A stretch of 48,480 nt of DNA from Bacteroidia bacterium. GTDB taxonomy: Bacteria > Bacteroidota > Bacteroidia > JAIBAJ01. Positions 1,604 to 23,808 of this stretch are shown piece after piece (the first letter of the stretch is position 1; each line of letters starts with the position of its first letter). Position numbers and translations under genes: made by a program. The notes below the pieces were generated by a model. That model did not search any database. It was not told the origin of the DNA and saw only the letters and a program-made list of their open reading frames with translations. The stretch is from NCBI GenBank assembly GCA_019695265.1, contig JAIBAJ010000015.1, forward strand, positions 1 through 48,480. Direction: 5' to 3'.

Positions 1604-2938
1604 TTACTTACGCATATTAGGCATATTTCGCATTAGTTTACTCATTTGTTCACGGTTAGTAAACATTTTCATCATTTTTCTAGTCTCATCAAATTGATTG
1701 AGTAATTTATTTACTTCCTGTATGGAAGTTCCACTACCTGCTGCAATACGTTTACGGCGGTTACCATTAATAATAGCCGGGTTTTCTCTTTCAGCCGGAG
1801 TCATGGAAGAAATGATAGCTTCAATTCCTTTAAAGGCATCATCACCAATTTCAATATCCTTCATTGCTTTGCCCATTCCGGGAATCATACCGATTAAATC
1901 TTTCATGGAGCCCATTTTTTTGATTTGATCGATTTGCTTCAGGAAGTCGTTGAAATTGAATTGGTCTTTTGCTAATTTTTTGGTGAGTTCGCGTGCTTGA
2001 TTTTCGTCAAATTGTTGTTGAGCTCTTTCAACCAAGGAAACGATGTCACCCATACCTAATATACGGTCTGCCATCCTCTCCGGATGAAATACATCCATGG
2101 CGTCCATTTTTTCACCTAAACCGACGAATTTGATGGGTTTAGTTACAACGCTACGGATACTTAGGGCAGCACCACCGCGGGTATCACCATCCAATTTGGT
2201 GAGAATTACACCGGTAAAATCAAGGGTGTCATTAAAAGCTTTAGCAGTATTTACGGCATCTTGCCCGGTCATACTATCTACCACAAACAAAATTTCGTTG
2301 GGTTGTAAAGCTGATTTCAATGACGCAATTTCATCCATCATTTGCGCATCAACAGCCAAACGACCGGCGGTATCGATAATTACAACCGAGTGACCTTTGG
2401 ATTTAGCATGATTGATAGCGTTTTTAGCGATTTGAACTGCATTTTTGGTATCAGGTTCTGCATAAACTTCCACTCCAATTTGTTCACCAAGCACTTTCAA
2501 TTGGTCAATCGCTGCCGGGCGATAAATGTCACAAGCAACAAGCAATGGGTTTTTACCTCTTTTGGTTTTGAGGTGGTTTGCTAATTTTCCTGAGAAGGTT
2601 GTTTTACCACTTCCTTGAAGTCCGGCCATCAGAATTACGGTAGGGTTTCCTCCTAATTGGATATCAACCTTGCTTCCACCCATTAATTGGGCCAATTCAT
2701 CATGAACCAATTTTACCAAAAGTTGTCCTGGCGAAACGGAGGTCAATACATCCTGGCCTAGAGCTTTTTCCTTAACTGTGTCGGTGAACTGTTTGGCAAT
2801 TTTATAGTTAACGTCGGCGTCGAGCAAGGCTTTTCTAACTTCTTTCAAGGTTTCAGCAACGTTGATTTCTGTAATTTTTCCTTGGCCTTTCAATACTTTA
2901 AAGGCTCTGTCCAACTTTTCACTTAAATTTTCAAACAT
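1604..2938 (-). CDS. ffh: Signal recognition particle protein Ffh (SRP54 GTPase)
   Basis: GTPase that binds SRP RNA and signal peptides of nascent membrane and secreted proteins and delivers ribosomes to FtsY at the inner membrane. Its 444 residues match the family length. Domain order: N domain (1-85) with the ALLDADVNYK motif; G domain with GLQGSGKTT (G1, 106-114), DTAGRL (G3) and TKLDGDTRGG (G4); methionine-rich M domain from about 300 to the end, finishing MMKMF...MSKLMRNMPNMRK. Start MFENLSEKL is the family start. It is transcribed alone. The upstream TTTCTTTG at about 2996-3003 (minus strand) is a weaker version of the -7 box, with a leader near 58 bases. Confidence 0.98.
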   Translation of the reverse strand: MFENLSEKLDRAFKVLKGQGKITEINVAETLKEVRKALLDADVNYKIAKQFTDTVKEKALGQDVLTSVSPGQLLVKLVHDELAQLMGGSKVDIQLGGNPTVILMAGLQGSGKTTFSGKLANHLKTKRGKNPLLVACDIYRPAAIDQLKVLGEQIGVEVYAEPDTKNAVQIAKNAINHAKSKGHSVVIIDTAGRLAVDAQMMDEIASLKSALQPNEILFVVDSMTGQDAVNTAKAFNDTLDFTGVILTKLDGDTRGGAALSIRSVVTKPIKFVGLGEKMDAMDVFHPERMADRILGMGDIVSLVERAQQQFDENQARELTKKLAKDQFNFNDFLKQIDQIKKMGSMKDLIGMIPGMGKAMKDIEIGDDAFKGIEAIISSMTPAERENPAIINGNRRKRIAAGSGTSIQEVNKLLNQFDETRKMMKMFTNREQMSKLMRNMPNMRK

Positions 2939-3142: not shown

Positions 3143-3598
3143 TTATTGGCTCATTTTATCCAGATAGGATTTGTCTTTGTCTAAAATTCCCTTCCCAAGA
3201 AAATAGATATCATCTGATTGGATATTGGTTAGGTAGGAGGGGTTGTTTTCAAGGAGACTTGAACCCAGGTAGAACCAGTCATCATTTTTTATTTTTTCCA
3301 ATTCAGCCTTATTTTTTAAAACCAAGGCTCTGCCTAGAAAGTACAGATCATCGTCCTTGACAAACTTAAGCAGAGTCTCTTTTTTTTCGAAAATGGATTT
3401 TGCCAAATAATAAATATCGTCGTTTTGGATTTTTGATAAAACTAAAGTGTCATTAGTTATTCGGCTGTACCCAAGGTAATGCAAATCGTTTCCGGAAATG
3501 GATTGAGCGAGGGAATTAAAAGAAAACCCAATGGTTATACTAAAGGCAATAAACCATAAATAGGCCGTTTTTTTTTCAAAAATCTGGGACTCAATCAT
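3143..3598 (-). CDS. Secreted protein made of five 23-residue repeats (unknown function)
   Basis: 151 residues. An N-terminal hydrophobic segment (about 11-30) ending SLAQ looks like a signal peptide. The rest is five gapless tandem repeats of exactly 23 residues at 34-56, 57-79, 80-102, 103-125 and 126-148. The pattern is (I/V)-x-x-D/N-D-(I/L/W)-x-(Y/F)-L-(G/A), then a variable helix-like half rich in K, E and L. For example IQNDDIYYLAKSI, VKDDDLYFLGRAL and IKNDDWFYLGSSL. I do not recognise it as TPR, Sel1, ankyrin or LRR. It lies 89 bp upstream of a TonB-C/VWA fusion gene's 3' end, on the same strand. A TACCTTCG box at 3637-3644 (minus strand) may drive it. Export is inferred; function is unknown. 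Confidence 0.7.
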   Translation of the reverse strand: MIESQIFEKKTAYLWFIAFSITIGFSFNSLAQSISGNDLHYLGYSRITNDTLVLSKIQNDDIYYLAKSIFEKKETLLKFVKDDDLYFLGRALVLKNKAELEKIKNDDWFYLGSSLLENNPSYLTNIQSDDIYFLGKGILDKDKSYLDKMSQ

Positions 3599-3687: not shown

Positions 3688-5277
3688 CTAATTCAACACT
3701 TTTTCAAATTTCCCATTTAATAATTTAAAAGTGAAAACACCCAGCTTAATTTGTTGTCCTTCTTGCATTTCATTCAAATCAATTGCCTCACCGGTCATGG
3801 TATGAACGGTGCCTCCTGTTGCTTTGGCAATATCAAGGTAACGTGGATTAGGTGAAAAGCGGCTTGCACATAGAATAATATGAACCGGCTTGGTTAGTTG
3901 AGAAATCAATGCTAAATCACGCGGAGTGGCTAGGTTATCGGCAATCATAACCAGACTTTCGCAGGAAGGGCAAGCTTCCTGAGCTCTTAATAAGGCTTCG
4001 ATGTTGTTTTCAGATTTATCACCACCATTGTTGCAGGCTTTAAGTAAAGTTTCTTTTACCTGCTCAAAGGAGGAGCAGTCGGTACTGTATATACCTCCTG
4101 TATTGCCTAAGGATTTATTTACATCCAGTTTGCCGTCGCCATCATTAAAGAAAAAGGCTTTGGAGAAGTTCTTTTTGGAAATATTTTTTTTGAGCCAACG
4201 CATGGTTTGTGCTAGGTAAGGCGACATACTGGCGGTTACATCAATAACCAAGGCGGAATTTTTCCAATTGTGTTTATCTAACGCTGTTATTACAACTTCT
4301 TCGGCTGCTTTGTCAAGCCGTTCAAAACCAGGAGGTGGTGAAGATTTTACCTCAGGTGAGTTCCTGCCAGACGGAAAAAAGGTAGAATTATTAATTAATT
4401 CACCGGGTTCGGCCTGGCATTTCCCCTTGGTAAATTTAATAGGAAGCATAAAATTGGTAAGTAAAGCATCTCCATTAACACGACCAACTTGCCAATCGGG
4501 CATATTTTGTATAGCTTTTAGTGCAATATCGTCGCATGGTTGGCCAATGCCTAAAGCCACTTTAGAATACCGTAATTTCCCCATGGTGTCTATGGTGAAT
4601 TTGAGGTTTACCTGGCCATTGCAATTGCAACCTGGAGGATTAGGACTGCTTAATAGGACGCCCTTCAAATAGGTTTTGAATTTTTGTTCACCTCCGATAA
4701 ATTGTGTGGGTAGGGTAGGTCCAGTTTTTGCAGGAGGAAATTTTTTGGGACCTGGTTTGGAATTGTCAGGTTCCGGGGTTTTCAATTTATTTTTTGGCTT
4801 TTCCAGCATATCCAAAAAAGCGGATAATTTGGCAATCTCGGTTGAATAAGCCGTACTATCTGTTCCCGGACGGTAGGTAATTAAAAAACCATGGAACATT
4901 TTCCGCCCTTCTTGCAGGTTAGGTACAGCGGTTTGTCCGGTTTCCAAATAGGCTACGCCATCTTCTTGGGTTATACCTGGAATAAACTTTTCAAGTTCTT
5001 TCCAGCGTTTTTGGTTCAAGAGATTTTGATTGAATTTTTCACTGCGTTGAAATTTGGTATAGAAAAGTTCAATTCTAAGTACTTCAAAATGCCTGATTTT
5101 TTCTAAAGTTTCAGGATTTAAAATGGTAGGTTTGTCATAAGGTGTCCTTACTAAAACCTGCCATCCTTTGATGCTTGTGGTATCAAAGTTTTCTACCAAT
5201 CTGGCCTTGGTCATTTGGGCGTTGGTAGAAAATGTTAAACCAAGAAAGGTAAGCAGCGTAATAAACTTAGTTTTCAT
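3688..5277 (-). CDS. Secreted fusion of a TonB C-terminal-like domain and a von Willebrand A-like domain
   Basis: 529 residues from the ATG at 5277; a TTG two codons upstream is a poorer start. Signal peptide MKTKFITLLTFLGLTFSTNAQ. Residues about 190-285 resemble an energy-transducer TonB C-terminal domain: FIGGEQKFKTYL, GQVNLKFTIDTMGKL, then ALKAIQNMPDWQVGRVNG and LPIKF, like FPGG...V.V.F.VD..G...P.W.PG. Residues about 338-500 look like a VWA domain: ALVIDVTASMS gives a MIDAS-like DxTxS (Asp346, Thr348, Ser350), then GGDKSENNIEALLRA and MIADN. Between them is a Pro/Lys-rich linker. There is no N-terminal membrane anchor as in true TonB, so it is probably periplasmic or exported. Role unknown; partner of the adjacent repeat protein is only a guess. 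Confidence 0.65.
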   Translation of the reverse strand: MKTKFITLLTFLGLTFSTNAQMTKARLVENFDTTSIKGWQVLVRTPYDKPTILNPETLEKIRHFEVLRIELFYTKFQRSEKFNQNLLNQKRWKELEKFIPGITQEDGVAYLETGQTAVPNLQEGRKMFHGFLITYRPGTDSTAYSTEIAKLSAFLDMLEKPKNKLKTPEPDNSKPGPKKFPPAKTGPTLPTQFIGGEQKFKTYLKGVLLSSPNPPGCNCNGQVNLKFTIDTMGKLRYSKVALGIGQPCDDIALKAIQNMPDWQVGRVNGDALLTNFMLPIKFTKGKCQAEPGELINNSTFFPSGRNSPEVKSSPPPGFERLDKAAEEVVITALDKHNWKNSALVIDVTASMSPYLAQTMRWLKKNISKKNFSKAFFFNDGDGKLDVNKSLGNTGGIYSTDCSSFEQVKETLLKACNNGGDKSENNIEALLRAQEACPSCESLVMIADNLATPRDLALISQLTKPVHIILCASRFSPNPRYLDIAKATGGTVHTMTGEAIDLNEMQEGQQIKLGVFTFKLLNGKFEKVLN

Positions 5278-5323
5278 AGGCAATACAAGCCAAATGTTTA
5301 ACGTTTCAACCCAAAACCGAAAA

Positions 5324-6859: not shown

Positions 6860-7288
6860 ATGGAGAATCCTCAAAAGCCCAAGCGGAAAATGCAACAGGT
6901 TAGTTTTAAAACCTTAGATGATTTTTGGGAATTTTTACCTGCCGATGAAAAACTTATTTGCAGGAAACTGAGAGCATTGGTTTTGGATTGTATCCCGTTT
7001 GCTACGGAGCAACTTTCGTATAACGTTTTGTATTTCAAAGGACACCGAATGATTTGTTTTATCTGGCCAGCCTCTGTTGGATGGGGAGAAAATCAAAATT
7101 GGAAGGGTGTTAGGTTTGGATTCGCATATGGCAACTATTTGGTGGATGAGGAAGTTTATTGGGATAAAGGAAGCCGAAAACAAGTGGTTTGGAAAGACTT
7201 TCAATCTATCTCAGATATTCAATCCGATATCATTAAGGACTTTTTATTTCAAGCGTATGAATTAGATCAAGGACCTAAACCAAAATAG
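6860..7288 (+). CDS. DUF1801 domain protein (YdhG-like)
   Basis: 142-residue soluble protein with the DUF1801 fold pattern. LRALVLDCIPFATEQLSYNVLYFKGHRMICFIW gives the buried strands and the conserved Tyr-Phe-Lys-Gly-Arg. Then WKGVRFGFAYGN, and a C-terminal helix region SDIIKDFLFQAYELD. The family is small, cytosolic and of unknown biochemical role (E. coli YdhG-like proteins). Start at 6860 (MENPQKPKRKMQQVSF); the later Met at residue 11 is possible since the first ten residues are charged and not conserved. CATCTTTG at 6823-6830 is a one-mismatch -7 box. The gene is divergent from glyA. Confidence 0.8.
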   Translation: MENPQKPKRKMQQVSFKTLDDFWEFLPADEKLICRKLRALVLDCIPFATEQLSYNVLYFKGHRMICFIWPASVGWGENQNWKGVRFGFAYGNYLVDEEVYWDKGSRKQVVWKDFQSISDIQSDIIKDFLFQAYELDQGPKPK

Positions 7289-7429: not shown

Positions 7430-9934
7430 ATGAAAAAACTTTTTACAACCATTCTGGTAGGAGCTGTTTGCCTTACCCTGAACACCCAAGCCCAAATTAG
7501 TCACGGAGGTCAACCGCTTTCAAACCATTTCCCTTCTTTATTTAAGTCGGTGGAAGGTGTGGAATTGACAGCTCCAGACCCTTCTAGCCTTTTGGCAGAA
7601 GATCAGGATAGGGCAGTAAAAGGTAGTTTATATCGAATTGGGACTTCCCTTTTGACAGATATAAAGCCTACAAATTCAGGAACTTGGACTCTGTTGCCGG
7701 ACGGAGGAAAAGTTTGGAGATTGCAAGTTTCGGCTTCCGGTGCTAAAGCTTTGGGTTTTTATTTTGACCAATTCCATTTACCAGTAGGTGCTCAATTGTT
7801 TGTATACAATGAAAATAAATCCCAGGTAATTGGAGCCTTTACTTCTGAAAATAATCATGAAAGCGGCTATTTTGCCACCGAAATGATTTTTGGATCTTCA
7901 GCCATATTGGAATTGTACATTCCATTGAAATCAAAAGGTTCCAACCTGCAATTTCACTTAAATGAGGTGGCATATTTTTATAGAAATGTTTATGCTCCTA
8001 AGGATGCCAAGGATTTTGGAGATTCAGAAAGTTGCGAAGTAAATGTTAATTGTTCGGAAGGGAATAACTGGGCTAACCAAAAAAGAGGTGTTGCCAGAAT
8101 TATGGTGAAAGCCGGAAATCAGTATGGATGGTGTTCCGGTTCCTTAATTAATAATACCAATGTGGATTGTTCTCCATTATTCCTAACTGCTGACCATTGT
8201 TCTGAAGGAACCAGTGCCAGTGATTTAAATCAATGGGTTTTTTATTTTAATTACCAGGCTTCAGGATGTACCAATCCTGCTTCACAAGGAACTCTTGCCA
8301 ACCAAACCATGACCGGTGCCACACTTAAGGCCCAAACAACCGGAATGGGAAACCAGGATAGTGACTTTTATTTAGTTCTTCTAAACAACAATGTACCTCA
8401 ATCTTATGCCCCCTATTTTAACGGTTGGGATAGAAATAATACAGCATCAACGGGAGGAGTAGGTATTCACCATCCTGCCGGTGATATCAAGAAAATTTCA
8501 ACCTATACCGGAACATTGGTTTCCAGCACGTATGGAGGAACAGTTGCCAATACACACTGGAGAGTTACCTGGGCAGGAACAGCCAATGGTCATGGTGTAA
8601 CCGAAGGAGGTTCTTCCGGTTCTCCGCTTTTCGGAAGCAATGGATTAATTGTTGGTCAATTAACAGGTGGAAGTTCTTATTGCACCGCACAAACTTCTCC
8701 TGATTTATACGGTAAGTTTTCGTATAGCTGGACTTCGAACGGAGCAGCGGCTAATCGTCAATTAGCACCTTGGTTGGATCCTTCTTCTTCCGGAGTTACA
8801 ACCTTGGCAGGCGTTAACCAGCCATGTGTTCAGGTGGATCCCCCGGTAGCAGATTTCACTGCCAACAATACGGTGGTAGGTATTGGTCAGCAAGTAAATT
8901 TTACTGATTTAAGTACCAACTCTCCAACCAGTTGGAGCTGGAGTGTAAGTCCAAACACATACACCTATGTTCAAGGTACTTTTCCTTCTTCCCAAAACCC
9001 TAAAATGACTTTTTCAAGTGCGGGTTATTACACCATTACCTTAACTGCAACCAATGATGGAGGTTCTGATACAGAAGTGAAAACCAATTATATTTTGGTT
9101 ACTTCCGGTGGACAAACTACGGTTTGTGATACAGCTTTCTACTTTGATGGAAGGTATTATGGTGGTAGTAACTTAGGGGCGAATTTTAGTCTGGATGCTA
9201 CTAACTACGATACTAACACACCTTTTGATGCCACCAACTACAGCACAGAATGGATGTCGTTTTATGAATTGCCAAGCGGTACTGATACCAACTGGTATTT
9301 AGGTAGCCTTTCCTACTTTGATGCTGTTGCAACCAGCAACGATTGGTTAACTTTCGGTCCAGTTTCTATTCCGGCGGTTGGTGCTACCTTACATTGGCAA
9401 CATTTACTTCCGGATAATGATTTCAGAGATGGATACTCGGTAAAAATTTCAACCGTTGGTGCCACCGTTGCAAACCTAAATGCAGGTGCAACTTTGTATT
9501 CTGCTACGGATAATGACCCTTCCACAGATGGAGATACCGTATGGACTGATCAATCCGCAGTTATTTCAGCAGCTACCTATGGAGGACAAAATGTTTATAT
9601 CGGTTTTAAACACGTTTCAACCGATATGTTCTTCCTTTTGTTGGATAATTTGTACATCGATTATTGCACCACTATTCCGGTAGGAATATCTGAAAATGAT
9701 CAATTGGTTTCTGTTTATCCTAACCCGAGCACAGGATTAATTACTATTTCGGGTCTGCTTGCTGATTCCCAGCTAAGTTTATCCGACCTTTCCGGTAGGA
9801 AATTGCTTGTTCCTATTTCTTCCAATGCCGGCCAGGCTCAAATGGACTTGTCCAATTTGGCCAATGGAATGTATCTGGTAAATATTTCCAATCAGGGTCA
9901 AACAAAAGCCTATAAAGTTCAAGTAATAAAATAG
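7430..9934 (+). CDS. Secreted trypsin-like serine protease (lysyl-endopeptidase type) with PKD domain and T9SS sorting tail
   Basis: 834 residues. Signal peptide (1-21, ending TQAQ) and N-terminal propeptide-like region to about 200. The S1-type protease domain has LTADHC (His256), DSDFYLVLL (Asp312) and GGSSGSPLF (Ser396), resembling lysyl endopeptidases, with paired cysteines (GWCSGS...DHC). A PKD domain follows at about 482-560 (VADFTANNTVV, SWSWSVSP, YTITLTATNDGG). Next is a jelly-roll/adhesin-like region (560-750). The C-terminal type A sorting domain (VYPNPSTGLITI ... MYLVNISNQGQTKAYKVQVIK) routes it through the type IX secretion system to the cell surface or medium. Monocistronic. Likely an extracellular nutrient-scavenging protease; cleavage specificity is inferred. 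Confidence 0.93.
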   Translation: MKKLFTTILVGAVCLTLNTQAQISHGGQPLSNHFPSLFKSVEGVELTAPDPSSLLAEDQDRAVKGSLYRIGTSLLTDIKPTNSGTWTLLPDGGKVWRLQVSASGAKALGFYFDQFHLPVGAQLFVYNENKSQVIGAFTSENNHESGYFATEMIFGSSAILELYIPLKSKGSNLQFHLNEVAYFYRNVYAPKDAKDFGDSESCEVNVNCSEGNNWANQKRGVARIMVKAGNQYGWCSGSLINNTNVDCSPLFLTADHCSEGTSASDLNQWVFYFNYQASGCTNPASQGTLANQTMTGATLKAQTTGMGNQDSDFYLVLLNNNVPQSYAPYFNGWDRNNTASTGGVGIHHPAGDIKKISTYTGTLVSSTYGGTVANTHWRVTWAGTANGHGVTEGGSSGSPLFGSNGLIVGQLTGGSSYCTAQTSPDLYGKFSYSWTSNGAAANRQLAPWLDPSSSGVTTLAGVNQPCVQVDPPVADFTANNTVVGIGQQVNFTDLSTNSPTSWSWSVSPNTYTYVQGTFPSSQNPKMTFSSAGYYTITLTATNDGGSDTEVKTNYILVTSGGQTTVCDTAFYFDGRYYGGSNLGANFSLDATNYDTNTPFDATNYSTEWMSFYELPSGTDTNWYLGSLSYFDAVATSNDWLTFGPVSIPAVGATLHWQHLLPDNDFRDGYSVKISTVGATVANLNAGATLYSATDNDPSTDGDTVWTDQSAVISAATYGGQNVYIGFKHVSTDMFFLLLDNLYIDYCTTIPVGISENDQLVSVYPNPSTGLITISGLLADSQLSLSDLSGRKLLVPISSNAGQAQMDLSNLANGMYLVNISNQGQTKAYKVQVIK

Positions 9935-23030: not shown

Positions 23031-23720
23031 TTTTTTTTGTTTGGCGGAGAGAGAGGGATTACTACGTGAACCCTGGTTGGGGGGCATCAAACAAAAAAAC
23101 CGCTCGTGACCTCGCTTGGTTTTTTTATTTCCACTCCTCACTCAATCCCTGGCGGGCTTGGTTCGGGTTGGAAATAAAAAAACCAACCCTCCGGGCTGGT
23201 TTTTTTTGTTTGGCGGAGAGAGAGGGATTACTACGTGAACCCTGGTTGGGGAGGCATCAAATAAAAAAACCGCTCGTGACCTCGCTTGGTTTTTTTATTT
23301 CCACTCCTCACTCAATCCCTGGCGGGCTTGGTTCGGGTTGGAAATAAAAAAACCAACCCTCCGGGCTGGTTTTTTTTGTTTGGCGGAGAGAGAGGGATTA
23401 CTAACGTGAACCCTGGTTGGGGGGCATCAAACAAAAAAAACGCTCGTGACCTCGCTTGGTTTTTTTATTTCCACTCCTCACTCAATCCCTGGCGGGCTTG
23501 GTTCGGGTTGGAAATAAAAAAACCAACCCTCCGGGCTGGTTTATTTTGTTTGGCGGAGAGAGAGGGATTACTTACGTGAACCCTGGTTGGGGGGCATCAA
23601 ACAAAAAAACCGCTCGTGACCTCGCTTGGTTTTTTTTATTTCCACTCCTCACTCAATCCCTGGCGGGCTTGGTTCGGGTTGGAAATAAAAAAACCAACCC
23701 TAGGGGCTGGTTTTTTTGTT
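23031..23720 (-). repeat. Tandem array: four near-identical 170-bp units carrying the tRNA-Ser 3' end
   Basis: Units start at 23042, 23211, 23381 and 23551 (periods 169, 170, 170); the next period is the real tRNA at 23721. Each unit starts with TGGCGGAGAGAGAGGGATT, identical to the last 19 tRNA bases read from the plus strand, then departs (ACTACGTGAACCCTGG instead of CGAACCCCCGG). Each then carries an inverted repeat of 16 bp (23288-23303 with 23339-23354 in unit 2, 35-base loop), whose arms include T7 and A7 runs. A terminator-like hairpin AACCAACCC/GGGCTGGTT follows. Units differ at only a few bases, so duplication is recent. Not coding: the open frames in it change with every unit because 170 is not a multiple of three. 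Confidence 0.9.
23685..23712 (-). terminator. Intrinsic terminator downstream of tRNA-Ser
   Basis: Read from the minus strand, AACCAGCCCC TA GGGTTGGTT (23692-23712) is followed by a run of seven T. It lies 9 bases after the tRNA CCA end. The plus strand also ends in a T run, so it can act in both directions. Each tandem unit contains a copy. Confidence 0.7.
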
Positions 23721-23808
23721 TGGCGGAGAGAGAGGGATTCGAACCCCCGGTACCTTTCGGCACAACGGTTTTCAAGACCGCCGCATTAGACCGCTCTGCC
23801 ATCTCTCC
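23721..23808 (-). tRNA. tRNA-Ser (anticodon UGA)
   Basis: 88 bases on the minus strand. Acceptor GGAGAGA pairs with TCTCTCC, discriminator G and encoded CCA. The anticodon stem/loop GCGGT CTTGAAA ACCGT gives anticodon TGA, which reads UCA. A long variable arm (TGTGCCGAAAGGTACC) fits the serine class. The T arm is GGGGGTTCGAATCCC. The -7 box TACTTTTG at 23814-23821 (minus) ends only 5 bases before the first mature base, so the 5' leader would be at most a few bases. Confidence 0.97.

Follow-up and report, generated by a model that had tools for sequence, protein, structure and literature searches.

A conserved five-repeat protein of a few Bacteroidia lineages, predicted to fold as a compact alpha-solenoid

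On its minus strand the window (the whole stretch of DNA analysed, 48,480 nt) carries an open reading frame with its ATG at position 3598 and its stop codon at 3145–3143, encoding a protein of 151 residues that consists of a predicted Sec-type signal peptide, five gapless 23-residue units (residues 34–148) and three final residues. The gene, its parts and its two neighbours are listed below, with helix positions from the predicted structure numbered from the first mature residue.

3143..3598, minus strand: gene of the putatively exported five-repeat protein, supported by the ORF list, orthologues and purifying selection
3503..3598, minus strand: predicted signal peptide, residues 1–32, ending ...SLAQ, without a lipobox Cys, read from the sequence
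3431..3499, minus strand: repeat 1, residues 34–56, from lag analysis; model helices at mature residues 6–16 and 19–24
3362..3430, minus strand: repeat 2, residues 57–79, from lag analysis; model helices at mature residues 28–39 and 42–47
3293..3361, minus strand: repeat 3, residues 80–102, from lag analysis; model helices at mature residues 51–62 and 65–70
3224..3292, minus strand: repeat 4, residues 103–125, from lag analysis; model helices at mature residues 74–85 and 88–93
3155..3223, minus strand: repeat 5, residues 126–148, from lag analysis; model helices at mature residues 97–108 and 111–116
3688..5283, minus strand: upstream neighbour, a TonB_C-domain protein with a signal-peptide-like start, from a TonB_C scan; gap 89 nt
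1604..2938, minus strand: downstream neighbour Ffh (SRP54), given for context; gap 204 nt

The signal peptide was called by eye from the sequence and the family alignment, in which the hydrophobic leader ends in AQ in 14/16 proteins and in SQ in 2/16. The earlier note had described the protein as secreted, and the signal-peptide reading supports export, but the protein is just as likely to stay in the periplasm as to be released. A scan for promoters and terminators yielded nothing above chance, and a search of the window's own genome for paralogues found none besides the gene itself. The TonB_C-domain protein encoded upstream is a possible operon partner, in this genome only. Its TonB_C domain lies mid-protein, and its C-terminal part resembles a VWA domain by eye, with no Pfam match at E ≤ 0.001.

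An array of fixed length

The five units read, in order, ISGNDLHYLGYSRITNDTLVLSK, IQNDDIYYLAKSIFEKKETLLKF, VKDDDLYFLGRALVLKNKAELEK, IKNDDWFYLGSSLLENNPSYLTN and IQSDDIYFLGKGILDKDKSYLDK. The mean BLOSUM62 score was 1.67 at a lag of 23 and 1.90 at a lag of 46, with all other lags from 5 to 49 below zero, and none of 5,000 shuffles reached the lag-23 score, either at that lag or anywhere between lags 15 and 40. The earlier description of five exact 23-residue repeats holds for the period but not for the letters, since the copies have diverged and any two share only 6–11 of their 23 residues. The invariant Asp and the Leu-Gly or Leu-Ala pair noticed before were confirmed, with Asp at unit position 5 and Leu at positions 9 and 21 in all five units, and Gly (4/5) or Ala (1/5) at position 10.

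Sixteen proteins could be aligned: the window protein, that of locus L002 and 14 others; locus L008 was left out, as it occupies the same place as L002 on a contig of equal length. All 16 have five units in a gapless register without any indel, so that the relatives, which the earlier note had proposed to check for conservation, keep five of five units in all 15 aligned cases. Among seven of the 16 proteins, picked as divergent, units from the same place in the array agreed at 49% between proteins, against 30% for units of one and the same protein, and the best cross-protein match was the same-position unit in 32/35 cases. This position specificity implies that the five-unit array is old and that each unit is under its own constraint; judged from these alignments, the array is an old fold of fixed length and not a young, changing tandem repeat.

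Distribution, selection and gene neighbourhood

In a sample of 395 genomes of the class, 16 carried the gene at E < 1e-50, and the next best match was at E of about 0.006 (0.0059). Matches with E between 0.0059 and 1 were attributed to chance; ten of their loci were read and encode unrelated proteins (a response regulator and an Hsp70-like protein, among others). L003 proved to be a chance match within a large protein with the look of an S-layer protein. A first search with the single sequence had returned the same 16 genomes and five weak matches, 21 in total; these five (E 0.0027–0.0097, loci not read) were likewise dismissed as chance. The carriers belong to four orders, namely the window's own (1/1 genome), two orders represented by one genus each (7/9 and 7/7 genomes) and a fourth (1/1). 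The two genomes without a match (2/9), G263 and G123, are from the order of G009, and one of them is 95% complete. Searches of the family and order around the window had only the window's own genome in the sample, and this genome was also the only carrier among 395 genomes of the phylum, a result that says little beyond rarity, since none of the other known carriers can have been included among those genomes. No homologue was found in viral contigs, phages or plasmids.

In 14 of 15 close pairs, all from a single genus, the Nei-Gojobori dN/dS was 0.03–0.09; the fifteenth pair (L006/L009), with nearly identical sequences, gave 0.24. The gene is under strong purifying selection in these pairs, and it is real, conserved and present in a few lineages of Bacteroidia.

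In all 15 loci outside the window, the repeat gene lies directly 3′ of an ornithine aminotransferase gene on the same strand. The name is our reading of an enzyme that matches PF00202 (the L002 copy was scanned). A possible start of the repeat gene, the start codons at these loci being the analyst's choice, falls between −4 and +35 nt of the stop codon of the enzyme gene in 15/15 loci, and a GTG overlapping that stop by 4 nt is available in 6/15. The gene on the 3′ side varies, with MiaE in seven loci of one order (one representative scanned) and an FMN reductase in seven loci of another order as well as in the only locus of a third (one representative each). In the window's genome the enzyme's nearest counterpart (70% identical) is encoded on a different contig, C1, with no repeat gene adjoining. 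The link between the two genes is strong but not obligatory, and has been lost in the window's genome.

Predicted fold and known repeat classes

AlphaFold2, given the window protein together with the L002 protein, produced one confident model out of five (pLDDT 95.3, pTM 0.88), with ten helices in a 23-residue register, whereas the other four reached pLDDT values of 31–49. From the single sequence the prediction was of low confidence (pLDDT 48), yet helical and with most of the same helices. In the confident model each unit has a helix of about 12 residues (positions 4–15) and one of about 6 residues (positions 18–23), and the repeat protein is thus predicted to be a compact alpha-solenoid of stacked tandem helical hairpins. 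Of the two suggestions made previously, a solenoid or a surface-binding array, the first is the one that these models favour. AlphaFold2 has been described as over-confident on some repeat sequences, although the case in point concerned beta-solenoids of perfect repeats (PMC11795689).

Helix N-caps offer a comparison that does not depend on the model. Residues of the N-cap type (N, D, S, T or G) occupy position 3 in 72/80 units and position 17 in 62/80, counts in which the 80 units (67 distinct) come from related proteins and are not independent, and their placement agrees with the modelled helices. The hydrophobic moment of the long helix, scanned from 60 to 180 degrees, peaked at 100 degrees, but 67 of 2,000 position shuffles equalled it, which makes this a weak test. 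Position 8, which is Y, F or W in 70/80 units, is placed by the helical wheel at about 155 degrees to the hydrophobic face, an exposed location on the wheel only, as neighbouring repeats may cover it.

The family is uncatalogued and has no convincing match to a solved structure. At the limits applied, the window protein matched nothing in Pfam, NCBIfam, PADLOC or PHROGs, in line with the earlier remark that the repeat belonged to no recognised family; no profile search placed it in a known repeat family. Removal of the signal peptide from the window protein and its relatives gave scattered Pfam matches that were below the curated cut-off or inconsequential. The sub-threshold family matches comprised the DcpS N-terminal domain (12/16 members, best E 0.00032; 16.1 bits for the window protein, cut-off 25), SspB (4/16, best E 1e-5) and ICE_Mbov_0398 (5/16, best E 0.00072); two PHROGs also matched below threshold, in 1/16 members each. 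All were rejected, as they fall in various unrelated families. None of the 16 members matched LRV, TPR, Sel1, LRR or MORN in Pfam at E ≤ 10. Foldseek gave best E values of 1.9 in the PDB and 0.57 in BFVD, and a literature search found nothing on this protein or on any 23-residue helical repeat.

It is unlikely that the protein belongs, as a divergent member overlooked by the profiles, to one of the known families of helical repeats, LRV or TPR/Sel1. The LRV unit of about 24 residues pairs a helix with a short 3-10 helix in a right-handed stack, and the 1lrv chain indeed shows 24-residue spacing. As modelled, the present protein (23 residues per unit) resembles LRV (PF01816; 1lrv) in having a short unit, in which a longer and a short helix stack in parallel, and in its acidic residues before the long helix. 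It differs in lacking the signature of the 1lrv chain (VRxxVA and P..L..L), in being apparently exported and rich in aromatic residues, and in the absence of Cys from 15/16 mature proteins. Comparison of the family profile with an LRV consensus written from general knowledge gave E 0.96 over one column, and no PF01816 match at E ≤ 0.001 was present in the window's own genome. LRV structures, including 1lrv, were not among the Foldseek and VIA-align matches listed, which excludes nothing. With the LRV architecture taken from general knowledge and the spacing read from 1lrv, the predicted shape is most like LRV, while membership of that family is not supported.

The TPR unit is a two-helix unit of 34 residues, TPR and Sel1 units having about 34–36 residues each, and its first helix carries a Leu-Gly pair. 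Predicted two-helix units with a Leu-Gly pair in the first helix are what our protein shares with this class, and the nearest solved folds in VIA-align were mostly TPR proteins, the best being the PilW TPR protein 2vq2 (Z 6.1, rmsd 6.6 Å). Matches with Z ≥ 4, however, have rmsd values of 3.7–8.2 Å, so that the likeness may reflect only a common arrangement. Against a TPR consensus from general knowledge the family profile gave E 0.081 over 19 columns; instead of a 34-residue unit, all 16 members keep a gapless 23-residue period, and the second helix of the model has only 6 residues.

A third possibility, hardly credible in our estimation, is that the helical model is wrong and that we are dealing with a leucine-rich repeat protein whose units have 23 residues, like those known from Leptospira. 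It derives from the only match of the family profile among PDB sequences, 4u06 (LIC10831), which we take to be such a protein and which was hit over four repeats, but at a non-significant E of 0.073. Leucine-rich repeats have one beta strand per unit and an LxxLxL motif, whereas neither the single-sequence model nor that made with L002 contains strands, both are helical, and the third Leu of the motif is missing from the spacing L21..I1..D4D5; the Pfam search at E ≤ 10 gave no LRR match either. MORN repeats, Gly-rich beta-hairpins of 23 residues, share the period and nothing else with our protein, which is predicted to be helical and has no Pfam match. A MORN-like protein with Gly-rich units of about 23 residues is encoded at 7284–7706 of L002, a few genes from the repeat gene in one lineage; it forms cluster c6, found in 6 loci, and its closeness is probably a coincidence.

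As a natural solenoid the predicted structure would be minimal, with five fixed 23-residue units and almost no caps, and it is a possible scaffold for repeat-protein design. With unit lengths taken from general knowledge except for PPR, the 23-residue unit is shorter than those of all eight alpha-solenoid subfolds to which we compared it. These eight are the subfolds listed in the abstract of a 2024 review, which gives 31–36 residues for the PPR unit (PMC11514114).

A putative binding surface and a possible link to ornithine

We consider it probable, with a fair margin for error, that the protein belongs to a new short-unit family of alpha-solenoids, is exported, and uses a recurring stripe of Asp and aromatic residues to bind a partner. 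The Sec pathway would cleave off residues 1–32, leaving 119 mature residues to form a rigid stack of five units, each of one long and one short helix. Leu or Ile at positions 1, 6, 9, 13 and 21, together with Gly at 10, would make up the core, and the residue preceding each helix, mostly Asp, Asn, Gly, Ser or Thr, would act as an N-cap. Asp4, the aromatic residue at position 8 and an often basic residue at 11 would line the polar face of the long helix in each of the five units, and on the model this stripe is probably a partner-binding surface; the partner could be, for instance, a glycan, a peptide or some small cationic molecule. Since it comprises only repeats apart from its leader and some terminal residues, the protein is better described as a ligand-binding scaffold or adaptor than as an enzyme.

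The neighbourhood suggests a narrower role that we regard as doubtful, in which the protein partners ornithine aminotransferase as a periplasmic component of ornithine or arginine use, for example as a binder or sensor of cationic amino acids, with coupled synthesis. The invariable same-strand linkage outside the window, the close spacing of the two genes and the overlapping GTG where available are consistent with this, as is the acidity of the mature proteins (net charge −3 to −13). However, the enzyme and the repeat protein would sit in different compartments, the repeat gene of the window lies between the genes of the TonB_C-domain protein and Ffh with the enzyme encoded on a different contig, and only three genera (7, 7 and 1 genomes) supply the linked loci, which thus represent few independent linkage events. 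Given the coupling and the acidic charge, cationic amino acids are a reasonable first candidate ligand, albeit one of low probability, and the association provides a testable link between ornithine metabolism and an exported protein. In its most specific form, which we hold to be quite improbable, the protein would be the founding short-unit (23-residue) alpha-solenoid, translationally coupled to ornithine aminotransferase, and its five stacked Asp/aromatic sites would capture periplasmic cationic amino acids or polyamines (ornithine, arginine). If true, this would be a solute binder built of repeats, unlike the usual two-lobed binding proteins.

Two other features of the window were recorded. 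An exported protein of 834 residues is encoded at 7430–9934; it looks like a trypsin-like protease that carries a PKD domain and, at its C-terminus, a type IX secretion tail. At 23031–23739 there is a tandem array with a period of 170 (4.2 copies, 97% matches), which runs into a tRNA-Ser gene on the minus strand (23721–23808), and its unit may be derived from the tRNA-Ser region.
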